Positions 58,785-64,000 of a DNA stretch of 64,000 nucleotides are shown in pieces. This DNA comes from Phaeacidiphilus oryzae TH49 (GTDB taxonomy: Bacteria; Actinomycetota; Actinomycetes; Streptomycetales; Streptomycetaceae): positions 4,917,801 through 4,981,800 of the forward strand of contig NZ_JQMQ01000005.1 in NCBI RefSeq assembly GCF_000744815.1, read 5' to 3'. The position numbers and the translations under genes are program-made. The first letter of the stretch is position 1. Every line of letters begins with the position of its first letter. Below the pieces are notes generated by a model that was given only the letters and a program-made list of their open reading frames with translations, was not told the origin of the DNA and did no database searches.

Positions 58785-58858
58785 ATGACGTGCCTATCAG
58801 GAGCAGCGGCAGGCAGCGAGGAGATTTCCGCGCGGCGCGCGGGGGCGGGCCTGCCGGC

Positions 58859-60202
58859 ATGAGCGGGACCACCGCCGGCTCCGTGCCGCCCGCCTCCTCC
58901 TCGCCGTCGTCAGGGGGGCCTGGGGGGTCTGAGCCCGCGCCCGTATCCGAGGCCGCGCCCGTACCCGAGGCCGCGCCCGTACCCGAGGCCGCGCCCGCGC
59001 CCGTATCCGAGGCCGGCCGTCCGCCCGAGCCCTCGCGTCCCTCCCGTCCCTCGCGCCCCTCCGGGCCGCCCCAGGACTCCGGTCTGGCGAGGATCCGCCG
59101 TGCGCTCTACCGCGCCCGCCGGCGGCTGCGCCGTACCGCGGTCGACTACTTCCGGGGCGACGCCTCCGACTGGATCGCCTTCGGCTCGCTGATCCTCCTC
59201 GTCCCGATCCTGATCGTGCTCTGCGTGCTGGCCACCCCGGTCTGGTTCCCGCCGTTCGCGCTCCTGCTGCCGGTGCTGGTCGGCGCGCTGCTGCTGCGTC
59301 CCGGCAGCCTCGTCCTCCTCTACGGCGCGGTCGCGGTCGCGCTGGCGCTGGAGGCGCGGCTCCTCGGACCGTGGGACGGCGGGCCCGGCCGGGTGACCCC
59401 GGGGACCGTCCTGGTCGTGCTGGCGATCGGCGCGCTCGGCATGCTGATCGCCCAGTTCCGCAACCGGGTCGGGGTGCCCTGGCGGCGCGGCGGATCGATG
59501 CTCTTCGACCTGCGCGAGCGGCTGCGGGTGCAGAGCCAGATCCCGGGCCTGCCGGACGGCTGGCACGCGGACATGGCGCTGCGCCCGGCCGGCGGGCAGT
59601 CCTTCTCCGGCGACTTCGTGGTGGCCGCCCGCACCGGTGACGGCCAGCGCTTCCTGGAGGTCGTCCTCGCCGACGTGTCCGGCAAGGGGATGGACGCCGG
59701 GTCCCGCGCGCTCCTCCTCTCCGGGGCCTTCGGCGGCCTCCTCGGCTCGCTGCCGCCGCACGACTTCCTGCCGGCGGCCAACGGCTACCTCCTCCGCCAG
59801 GACTGGGAGGAGGGCTTCGCCTCCGCCGCCCACCTCGTCCTCGACCTGGACACGGGCGAGTACGAGCTCCTCTCCGCCGGGCACCTGCCGGGGATGCACC
59901 GCCTTGCCGGCAACGGGAGTTGGCGGATGCGCGAGGCCGAGGGGCCGCTCCTCGGCATCTTCGAGTCGGCCAAGTTCGAGGGCGTACGCGGCCGGATGGG
60001 CAGCGGTGACGTCCTGATGCTCTGCACGGACGGGGTGGTGGAGGCGCCCGGCCGGGACTTCACCGAGGGGATGGACCGGCTGATGGGCGCCACCGACCGG
60101 ATGGTCGGAACCCCCTTCCGCGGCGCGGCGACCCGGCTGATCGAGTCGGTCGCCCAGGGCGCCGACGACGACCGCGCCGTCCTGCTGATCTGGCGCGGCT
60201 GA
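58859..60202 (+). CDS. Membrane PP2C (SpoIIE-type) Ser/Thr phosphatase
   Basis: 447 aa from MSGTTAGS; a GTG at 58790 in frame is possible but would leave only five bases to the divergent Eis-like start. The N-terminus carries AAPVPEAAPVPEA repeats (18-bp DNA units near 58940-59010). Three to four membrane helices (LILLVPILIVLCVLA; ALLLPVLVGALLLRPGSLVLLYGAVAVALAL) precede the PP2C-SpoIIE domain: GQSFSGDFVVAARTG, LADVSGKGMDAGSRA, LLSAGHLPGMHRL and LCTDGVVEAPG. It probably controls an anti-sigma-factor antagonist or similar partner. Confidence 0.9.
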   Translation: MSGTTAGSVPPASSSPSSGGPGGSEPAPVSEAAPVPEAAPVPEAAPAPVSEAGRPPEPSRPSRPSRPSGPPQDSGLARIRRALYRARRRLRRTAVDYFRGDASDWIAFGSLILLVPILIVLCVLATPVWFPPFALLLPVLVGALLLRPGSLVLLYGAVAVALALEARLLGPWDGGPGRVTPGTVLVVLAIGALGMLIAQFRNRVGVPWRRGGSMLFDLRERLRVQSQIPGLPDGWHADMALRPAGGQSFSGDFVVAARTGDGQRFLEVVLADVSGKGMDAGSRALLLSGAFGGLLGSLPPHDFLPAANGYLLRQDWEEGFASAAHLVLDLDTGEYELLSAGHLPGMHRLAGNGSWRMREAEGPLLGIFESAKFEGVRGRMGSGDVLMLCTDGVVEAPGRDFTEGMDRLMGATDRMVGTPFRGAATRLIESVAQGADDDRAVLLIWRG

Positions 60203-61293: not shown

Positions 61294-61515
61294 TCAGGCC
61301 TTGTCGGCCTCGCCGGCTTCCTTCGTCTCCTGGGTGACCCCGTTGTCGGGGGTCACCGTCTCCTGGGTCACGCCGTTCCGCGGTGCGGCGGTCTCCTGGG
61401 TGACCCCGTTCCGCGGTGCGGCGGTCTCCTGGGTGACCCCGTTCCTCGGCTTGGCGGTCTCCTGGGTCACGCCGTTCTCCGGCTTGACCGTGGCCGTCTC
61501 GTCCGCAGATGACAT
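61294..61515 (-). CDS. AfsS-like repeat protein (sigma-factor-like small regulator)
   Basis: 73 aa. After MSSADETATVK come five tandem 11-residue units: PENGVTQETAK, PRNGVTQETAA twice, PRNGVTQETVT and PDNGVTQETKE, ending AGEADKA. Small size, Asn/Thr/Pro repeats and the position beside an AfsR-type regulator match AfsS of S. coelicolor, which has short imperfect Thr/Pro/Asp/Asn repeats and is switched on by AfsR to stimulate antibiotic production. Here the gene diverges from the regulator, and its promoter region carries a SARP-type direct repeat. AAGGAG lies five bases before the ATG. Assignment is by analogy; the repeat sequence differs from AfsS. Confidence 0.7.
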   Translation of the reverse strand: MSSADETATVKPENGVTQETAKPRNGVTQETAAPRNGVTQETAAPRNGVTQETVTPDNGVTQETKEAGEADKA

Positions 61516-61582
61516 GGCGACTCCTTGAGGGAAACGTGCTGGCCCCACCCAGGCCGATCGGTCCGGTAGGCAGTACGTCGGA

Positions 61583-61616
61583 ATCCTGGCACAGTCGAAT
61601 CAACAGACAATCAACA
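61583..61616 (-). promoter_or_regulatory. SARP-type direct repeat and promoter of the AfsS-like gene
   Basis: On the minus strand TGTTGAT (61610-61616) is repeated exactly 11 bases later (61599-61605). CAGGAT (61583-61588) follows 10 bases after the second copy, close to the 8 bp reported between SARP heptamers and -10 elements. Transcription would start near 61576, giving a leader of about 60 bases. The repeat also overlaps the -35 position of the regulator gene. Confidence 0.65.
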
Positions 61617-61639
61617 ACCTGCGGATGTCGGTGTACATT
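61611..61639 (+). promoter_or_regulatory. Candidate promoter of the AfsR-like gene
   Basis: TCAACA (61611-61616) and TACATT (61634-61639) are 17 bases apart. The -35 lies within the direct repeat, so the regulator could control its own gene. CGTAC-TTTC-GTACG (61651-61664), an inverted repeat, follows in the leader. Confidence 0.4.
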
Positions 61640-61690
61640 CGTCCGCGACGCGTACTTTCGTACGTTGCGCACTCCGGGAGAAGAAGGTCC

Positions 61691-64000
61691 ATGCGGGACG
61701 GGAGGGGACTGGACGCCGGCGGAGACCGACCGCGCTTCCTGCTGCTCGGTCCGGTTCGCGTCCAACGCGGCGACGACTCCGCGGGGTTGGGCTCGCCCCA
61801 ACAGCTGGCCGTCGCCTGCGTCTTGCTGCTCAACGCGGGTCGGCTGGTCACCACCCAGCAGCTCATCGACGCGCTCTGGGGTGAGGAGCCCCCGCCGCGC
61901 TCGGTCGGCGCCGTGCGGACGTACGTGTCCCGGCTGCGCGCCCTCTTCGAGCCGGGCCGGCCCGCCCGTTCCCCGGGCCGCATCCTCACCTCCGTCGCCG
62001 ACGGCTATCTGCTCAGGGTCCCGGCGGAAGACGTCGACGCCCTCCGCTTCGAACAGGCCGTAGCCTCCGCCGAGTCGGGCACCGCCGAGGGCCAGGGCGC
62101 GCTGGCCGAGGCGCTCGCCCTCTGGGAGGGCGTCCCGCTCGCCGGCGCGACCGGACCGTACGCGGAGGCGGAGCGCCGCCGGCTCGCGGAACTCCGCCTG
62201 CGCGCCCAAGAGGCATGGCTGGAAGGCGAACTGTCGCTCGGCCGGGCATCCGACACGGTCGCCGAGCTCACCGCCCTCTCCGCCGAGCACCCGTTGCGCG
62301 AGCACCTGCGCGGGCTGCTCATGCAGGCGCTGTACCGCAGCGGACGGCAGGCCGAGGCGTTCGCCGTCTACACGGACACCCGCCGCATCCTGGTCGACGA
62401 GCTCGGCGTGGAACCGGGTCCCGAACTCGCAGCCCTCCACGGCCGGATGCTCGCCGGCGACCCGGACCTCGCCCCCGCCCCGCACGCCGAGGGCGTCTCC
62501 GCGCTCCCGTTGACCCCAGCCCAACTCCCCATCGACATCGCCGACTTCACCGGGCGCTCCAAGCTGATCAGCGAGCTCTCCGACATCCTGCGGGCCCCCG
62601 ATTCCCGTACGGTCGTGATCAGCGCCCTGGCCGGCATCGGCGGCGTCGGGAAGACCACCCTGGCGGTGCACACCGCCCACCGCATCCGCAGCGACTTCCC
62701 CGACGGCCAGCTCTACGCCGACCTGGCGGGCGCCGGGCCCAGCCCCACCGACCCCGCCACCGTGCTCGGCGACTTCCTGCGCACCCTGGGGGTCCCGGCC
62801 CGCGAGGTGCCGGACGGTTCGGACCGGCGCTCGGCCATGTACCGCACCCTCCTGGCCGACCGCCGCCTGCTGGTGGTGCTGGACAACGCCCGGGACGCCG
62901 CCCAGGTACGGCCGCTGCTGCCGGGCACCGCCGGCTGCGCCGTCGTGGTCACCAGCCGTGCCCGGATGGCGGGCCTCGCCGGGGTGCGGGCGTTCGACGT
63001 GGACGTGATGGAAGAGGACGAGGCGCTCCAGCTCTTCGCCACCATCGCGGGCCCGGAGCGGGTCGCCGCGGAGCCGGAAGCGGCGCGCCAGGTCGTCGGC
63101 GTCTGCTCACGGCTGCCGCTGGCGGTCCGGATCGTGGCCTCCCGCCTTGCGGCGCGGCCCGGCTGGACCGTCGCCACGCTCGCGGAGCGCCTCGCCGACC
63201 AGCGGCGCCGGCTGGACGAGCTGCACGTGGGCGACCTCGCCGTGGAGGCCACCTTCCACCTCGGCTACACCCAGCTCACCCCCGAGCAGGCCCGCGCCTT
63301 CCGGCTGCTGGCGCTGCCGGACGGCCCCGACTTCTCGCGCGCCTCGGCGGCCGCGCTGCTCGGCACGGACGAGTACGGCGCGGAGGACCTGGCGGAGTCC
63401 CTGGTCGACGCGGGGCTGCTGGAGTCCCCCGAGCCCGGGCGCTACCGCTATCACGACCTCATCCGCCTCTACGCCCGCCGCCAGTCCGAGCGCCACGAGG
63501 ACCCGAAGGAGCGCGAGCTGACGCTCCATCGGCTGATGGACCACTTCCAGGCGACCGTCCGCTGCGCCTCCCGGCTGCTGGAGCCGAACGACGTGCTCAC
63601 CGGGCAGCTGCCGCCGACCACGTCCGAGGGCTGCACCCTGGAGACGCCCGAGGAGGCGCACTCCTGGCTGGCCGCCGAGCACGCTGGCCTGCTGGCCCTG
63701 GCGGAGCAGACGGTCAGGGAGCGCACCGGCGGACCGCGGACCGCGGTCGACCTCCTCTTCACCTGGCTGTGGCTGATCGAGGCCCGGATGTACCGGCGCG
63801 ATCTGGAGCGGGTGCTGACCGCGGCGATCCAGGCGGCCGGCGCCGCCGCGGACCTCCTCTCCGAGATCCGGGCGCGCTTCCTCCTCGGGGTGCTCGGCTA
63901 CCTCGGCGGCGACTACACGGCGGCCGAGGCCGAACTCCGTTCCGCGGCACAGCTGCTGGCGGCGAGCGACCTCGCGGAGGGCATCACCCGGTACGGGGTG
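61691..64000 (+). CDS. AfsR-like SARP family regulator with NB-ARC ATPase (cut by window end)
   Basis: At least 770 aa; the 3' end lies outside. Residues about 15-95 are an OmpR-type winged helix (GLGSPQQLAVACVLLLNAGR; SVGAVRTYVSRLRALF), about 105-250 a bacterial transcriptional activator domain (EHPLREHLRGLLMQALYRSGRQ region; LVDELGVEPGPELAALH), then an NB-ARC ATPase with Walker A GIGGVGKTTLAV and LLVVLDNARD, and a helical C-terminus heading into TPR-like repeats (TWLWLIEARMYRRDLERVL). This is the AfsR layout. It would activate target promoters through direct repeats; AfsR itself is phosphorylated by Ser/Thr kinases. GAAGAAGG precedes the ATG. Confidence 0.92.
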   Translation, partial: MRDGRGLDAGGDRPRFLLLGPVRVQRGDDSAGLGSPQQLAVACVLLLNAGRLVTTQQLIDALWGEEPPPRSVGAVRTYVSRLRALFEPGRPARSPGRILTSVADGYLLRVPAEDVDALRFEQAVASAESGTAEGQGALAEALALWEGVPLAGATGPYAEAERRRLAELRLRAQEAWLEGELSLGRASDTVAELTALSAEHPLREHLRGLLMQALYRSGRQAEAFAVYTDTRRILVDELGVEPGPELAALHGRMLAGDPDLAPAPHAEGVSALPLTPAQLPIDIADFTGRSKLISELSDILRAPDSRTVVISALAGIGGVGKTTLAVHTAHRIRSDFPDGQLYADLAGAGPSPTDPATVLGDFLRTLGVPAREVPDGSDRRSAMYRTLLADRRLLVVLDNARDAAQVRPLLPGTAGCAVVVTSRARMAGLAGVRAFDVDVMEEDEALQLFATIAGPERVAAEPEAARQVVGVCSRLPLAVRIVASRLAARPGWTVATLAERLADQRRRLDELHVGDLAVEATFHLGYTQLTPEQARAFRLLALPDGPDFSRASAAALLGTDEYGAEDLAESLVDAGLLESPEPGRYRYHDLIRLYARRQSERHEDPKERELTLHRLMDHFQATVRCASRLLEPNDVLTGQLPPTTSEGCTLETPEEAHSWLAAEHAGLLALAEQTVRERTGGPRTAVDLLFTWLWLIEARMYRRDLERVLTAAIQAAGAAADLLSEIRARFLLGVLGYLGGDYTAAEAELRSAAQLLAASDLAEGITRYGV

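Follow-up and report, generated by a model that had tools for sequence, protein, structure and literature searches.

A predicted AfsR/AfsS-like activation module in divergent layout, with a conserved afs-type box, in Phaeacidiphilus oryzae TH49

AfsR is known as a master switch of antibiotic production. The closest described system is the AfsR-AfsS pair of Streptomyces coelicolor, in which a full-length regulator of the domain order SARP, NOD and TPR (structures 8HVR, 8JKE and 8K60) has as its target a small acidic repeat protein, AfsS, made of three 12-aa units and encoded directly downstream in tandem. The afs box of this species consists of two 11-bp repeats at −40 to −19 and is followed by the −10 element CACTGT (PMC10936776), with a repeat consensus of CGTT(T/C)ATCGNN (PMC10972967); PhoP and AfsR sites overlap at afsS (PMC6988585, PMC10972967), and how AfsS works is still unsolved (PMC2267785). 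Parts of this design recur elsewhere. In the SARP-LAL system PimR-pimM, a large SARP likewise acts on another gene of its own locus via heptamer repeats with an 11-bp period (PMC10972967), but the target is a pathway regulator within an antibiotic cluster and the C-terminal half of PimR is LAL/cyclase-like rather than NOD-TPR (PMC3367932). EmbR of Mycobacterium tuberculosis (2FEZ) shares the SARP-type DNA-binding and BTAD domains, with an FHA domain in place of NOD-TPR and with different targets. A literature search, outside whose scope subscription papers mostly fell, returned nothing relevant on a divergent afsR/afsS pair or on a Kitasatospora AfsR.

We analyzed a 64-kb stretch of DNA (the window), in which the first-pass annotation had described an AfsR-layout regulator diverging from a 73-aa repeat protein, an arrangement confirmed here by ORF coordinates and domains. 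The two genes are separated by a 175-bp gap, and the features, in window positions, are as follows.

61294-61515, minus strand: small ORF P0001, an AfsS-type repeat protein of 73 aa with an ATG start
61324-61477, strand unassigned: 33-bp tandem array coding for the P0001 units (Tandem Repeats Finder, 4.7 copies, 85% matches)
61583-61588, minus strand: hexamer CAGGAT, the inferred small-gene −10, 17 bp from the proximal repeat start
61595-61605, minus strand: afs-type box, downstream (proximal) 11-bp repeat TGTTGATTCGA
61606-61616, minus strand: afs-type box, upstream (distal) 11-bp repeat TGTTGATTGTC, located at the small-gene −35
61634-61666, plus strand: three candidates for the regulator −10 (TACATT at 61634, TACTTT at 61653, TACGTT at 61661), compared by their distances in relatives
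61691-64000 (within the window), plus strand: AfsR-type SARP-NOD-TPR regulator of 988 aa, with its ATG at 61691 and a GGAGAAGAAGG leader

Our main reading, to which we assign a probability of about 0.85, is a divergent AfsR/AfsS-type activation module in which the regulator is predicted to bind the box and switch on the small gene, whose protein would have an AfsS-type role. Within the gap, two TGTTGATT repeats on the minus strand follow each other at an exact 11-bp period, the perfectly repeated part being 8 bp long (AATCAACA on the plus strand at 61598-61605 and 61609-61616). Read along the minus strand, the order is TGTTGATTGTC-TGTTGATTCGA-CTGTGC-CAGGAT, which verifies the annotated TGTTGAT repeats at an exact 11-bp interval ahead of CAGGAT and places the start of the proximal repeat 17 bp before this hexamer. 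In S. coelicolor, where the downstream repeat begins at −29 and the −10 element at −12, the standard position, the distance between these starts is equally 17 bp, and the window site has the two CGTT(T/C)ATCGNN-like 11-bp repeats and the 17-bp spacing that define an afs box. The box of locus L138, CGTTCAGCGTT-TGTTTATGCCC-CTCGGG-CACTGT, fits the −35 (TTCAGC) and −10 elements given in the literature.

Exact 8-bp repeats at 11-bp spacing arose in 64 of 20,000 random intergenics of like composition (0.3%), a rate that would accommodate a functionless chance match and at which the repeat on its own is suggestive only. Across the 64-kb window, no second TGTTGAT-N4-TGTTGAT site was found at up to three mismatches (0.25 expected), and the pattern of box plus −10 had one exact match in the 7.8-Mb genome and one with a mismatch. 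Scored with a matrix built from all clades except the window, the window site reached 38.2 bits, compared to 11.8 bits for the next non-overlapping site in the 64 kb and a maximum of 18.5 bits over 3000 random intergenics. The comparative evidence decides that the box is more than chance. Aligned with related loci, the repeat is conserved, with motif, 11-bp period and 17-bp distance common to 43/43 divergent loci (the window, 29 Kitasatospora, 8 Streptacidiphilus and 5 Streptoverticillium-type Streptomyces) and 23/23 tandem afsR-afsS loci. For each locus, we picked the best 11-bp repeat with the motif [CT]GTT[TCG]AT, blind to the −10 element, and a NANNNT hexamer nevertheless started exactly 17 bp after the proximal repeat start in all 66, the sole spacing common to them all; these loci represent ten clades and are not independent, 29 being Kitasatospora. 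CAGGAT itself reappeared in four tandem afsS loci (L045, L046, L144 and L145), and a reversed control pattern was rare over 90 genomes. Conservation of a fixed geometry in 66/66 loci, along with the single exact genome match, refutes the chance explanation, whose probability we consider negligible, and the afs-type box and its geometry can be taken as real with very high confidence.

The conserved site might instead be mainly a PhoP operator (PHO box), as 11-bp repeats are used by both PhoP and AfsR and the two compete at afsS. The PHO repeat is GTTCACC-like, whereas the repeat in the window reads GTTGATT and those of relatives GTTTAT or GTTGAA, drifting by clade, and the fixed 17-bp distance to the −10 element and the constant link to an AfsR-type gene suit a SARP activator; we consider a site that is mainly a PhoP operator very unlikely, and binding by both proteins possible.

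The properties of the regulator are consistent with the SARP activator reading. Its gene runs 657 bp past the window end (the length of 988 aa was read from the genome), and its domains, Trans_reg_C (OmpR-type DNA-binding), BTAD, NB-ARC and TPR, follow the AfsR order of SARP (ODB plus BTAD), NOD (NB-ARC) and TPR. It aligned with the structurally solved AfsR of S. coelicolor along almost its full length (E = 1.5e-220) and retained 9 of 12 DNA-contact residues (S46, Q48, W74, P79, R87, T88, S91, R92 and R94), the changed positions being S80P, Q81R and K95A, while the base-reading T88 and R92 were present in 43/43 divergent regulators. Against the AfsR equivalog NF053617 (NCBIfam, cut-off 1430 bits), the regulator scored 960 bits, below the cut-off, with four divergent-layout regulators at 885-1003 bits and three tandem-locus regulators at 1494-1711 bits. 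A tree of 59 regulators, built by a quick method and with long branches and uncertain rooting, grouped every divergent-layout protein into a single clade (SH-aLRT 99), separate from the tandem AfsR clade. Strong members of both clades occurred together in no genome listed from the 120 searched, where second-best listed matches reached at most about 608 bits, and the two clades therefore look like alternative versions of one gene rather than paralogues kept together.

The small gene, preceded by an AAGGAG leader at 61521-61526, encodes a protein that consists mostly of five 11-residue units ending NGVTQET, compared to the three 12-aa units of S. coelicolor AfsS. An AfsS unit motif trained solely on 21 tandem AfsS-like proteins (TVKPENGVT, TVTPDNGVT) was present in P0001, with only 5 of 5000 shuffles equally good, and P0001 is a small acidic protein of short repeats of this kind; its unit TVKPENGVTQET resembles TVKPNNIYTEGT of the tandem locus L142. 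P0001 had no match to the AfsS equivalog NF053616 (NCBIfam, cut-off 60 bits), which the small protein of L138 (genus g9) exceeded with 90.7 bits. Every divergent relative carries a small divergent ORF at the same place, the encoded proteins differ greatly from clade to clade, and all seven small proteins tested from other divergent clades failed the AfsS unit motif, which suggests that the function of the partner could vary with the clade. This variability, combined with scans of P0001 against Pfam and NCBIfam that gave zero matches, is also what an unrelated small protein under SARP control, such as a peptide precursor, would predict, and some peptide precursors also have repeated cores. The tandem-AfsS unit motif and the likeness to L142 speak against that identity, as does the lack of a recognized maturation enzyme in the neighbouring ORFs inspected, and we regard it as unlikely. 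The AfsS-type reading of P0001 is the one we retain: the annotated pairing, in which a SARP box links an AfsR-type regulator to a small gene of AfsS type, is supported, and the view that the pair works like AfsR-AfsS is well supported at the level of sequence, but strict identity with AfsR-AfsS is not supported, both NCBIfam equivalog cut-offs being missed. The pair also differs from the S. coelicolor system in its divergent order, in the separate clade of its regulator and in its genomic neighbourhood.

On the basis of homology and position, the regulator is predicted with high confidence to activate the small gene. Two SARP domains would bind side by side on the 11-bp repeats at 61595-61616, which overlap the small-gene −35 position, and would bring RNA polymerase to the −10 element CAGGAT, such that an active regulator would lead to production of the 73-aa AfsS-type protein, which would act further downstream. 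As for S. coelicolor AfsR, inhibition of the regulator may be relieved when its NOD domain binds ATP.

The first-pass annotation had further placed the repeat over the −35 position of the regulator and proposed built-in autoregulation, and neither claim held up well. The sequence TCAACA-N17-TACATT, which matches the consensus at 8 of 12 positions, would put TCAACA of the box at the regulator −35, and a sigma70-type promoter scan, uninformative for streptomycete promoters, gave nothing above threshold. TACTTT at 61653 and TACGTT at 61661 match the distances of most relatives better than TACATT at 61634. Among divergent relatives, the best candidate for the regulator −10, a conserved TANNNT (TAAGCT, TACTGT, TACCGT, TACGTT and others), is in most cases 26-54 bp past the box and in two cases 84 and 104 bp past it, and was not found in three of those examined; at 26-54 bp, the repeat is not over the regulator −35 in those relatives. 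The repeats are moreover oriented towards the small gene, and the distance to the regulator −10 is outside the SARP activating position. A shared box, through which the regulator would act on its own promoter as well as on the small gene, draws on the common intergenic region and on the weak promoter readable across the repeats; given the −10 distances in most relatives and upstream boxes that always face outward (reverse orientation in 0/110 loci), we find it doubtful. Autoregulation as such is possible, with the positions giving it no support, and control of the small gene alone is the reading carried forward.

Both divergent and tandem layouts occur in this regulator family, which bears on the annotation of the module as rewired. 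The divergent layout was seen in 29/29 Kitasatospora loci and in the other divergent groups in unrelated gene neighbourhoods, and the divergent clade includes one switch to tandem, in some Streptacidiphilus, where a full box sits at the regulator stop codon before the small gene and another box is still present upstream, with no convincing divergent small ORF found there. Several tandem genera have an outward-facing upstream box (10/12 loci), as do the Streptosporangiaceae at about −139 (32/41 loci, among L084-L129, left out of matrix building). The Streptosporangiaceae also have a downstream box facing the regulator at about +245 in 38/41 loci, their upstream and downstream boxes sharing the geometry described above, and no uniform small gene was found among the ORFs behind their boxes. 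The outward upstream box was absent from 10/10 tandem loci of the g9/Streptomyces group. Since the divergent regulators form one old clade that includes a switch to tandem, and since the sister family and many tandem genera also have the upstream box, rewiring is unlikely and the divergent layout is probably the older state, with the tandem-only form of S. coelicolor derived, as far as the uncertain rooting of the tree allows. A broader reading is tentative, and we put it somewhat short of even odds: the divergent layout would be ancestral in Streptomycetales and Streptosporangiales; selection would keep the box and the position, not the sequence, of a fast-changing, probably disordered small protein; many lineages would have added a second box aimed at the regulator 3′ end that could drive antisense negative feedback; and the S. 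coelicolor tandem would be a derived exception.

Additional boxes were observed in several groups. In Kitasatospora (L074, L068, L080 and others), a second afs-type box was present in 28/29 loci. It lies about 91-157 bp past the regulator gene, on the strand directed towards the regulator 3′ end, and is followed by a GC-rich hairpin. No convincing ORF was found behind these boxes, only the GC hairpin, and Rfam returned no family except tRNAs in the sampled loci; the downstream box could drive an AfsR-dependent antisense or small RNA. Tandem genera (L042, L044-L046, L048 and L142-L145) have a second box (CGTATATCGATCGTTCATC...) about 67-101 bp upstream of afsR and pointing away from it, with afsS downstream in tandem. 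The only other box-like site in the window's genome at one mismatch (G000:C5:718318-718351, minus strand, corresponding to L131:1501-1534) scored 26.1 bits and lies approximately 170 bp upstream of an ORF that by eye resembles a Dyp-type peroxidase, a possible second target.

With respect to the neighbourhood, the module pair is common to the clades and the flanking genes are essentially unshared between the window and its relatives, which makes orthology by neighbourhood unusable. Past the window end (L009:10448-16000), the genes after the regulator are a hydrolase-like ORF, two tRNA genes and tig-clpP1-clpP2-clpX-like genes, and this side is not shared with relatives of the module. Within the window, an ORF at 58790-60202 (plus strand) resembles, by eye, a PP2C/SpoIIE-like phosphatase with a repeated PVSEAAPVPEAAP near its N-terminus.

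An operator that can be aligned and a rapidly changing partner, found in many genera and in both layouts, provide a natural comparison set for the unsolved action of AfsS. The features that stay fixed, namely the box with its spacing and the V-x-P-D/N-N unit in tandem AfsS and P0001, hint at the task required of the small protein. The module also offers a route to predicting AfsR-type targets beyond Streptomyces sensu stricto, and it makes the tandem order of the textbooks look like a special case.
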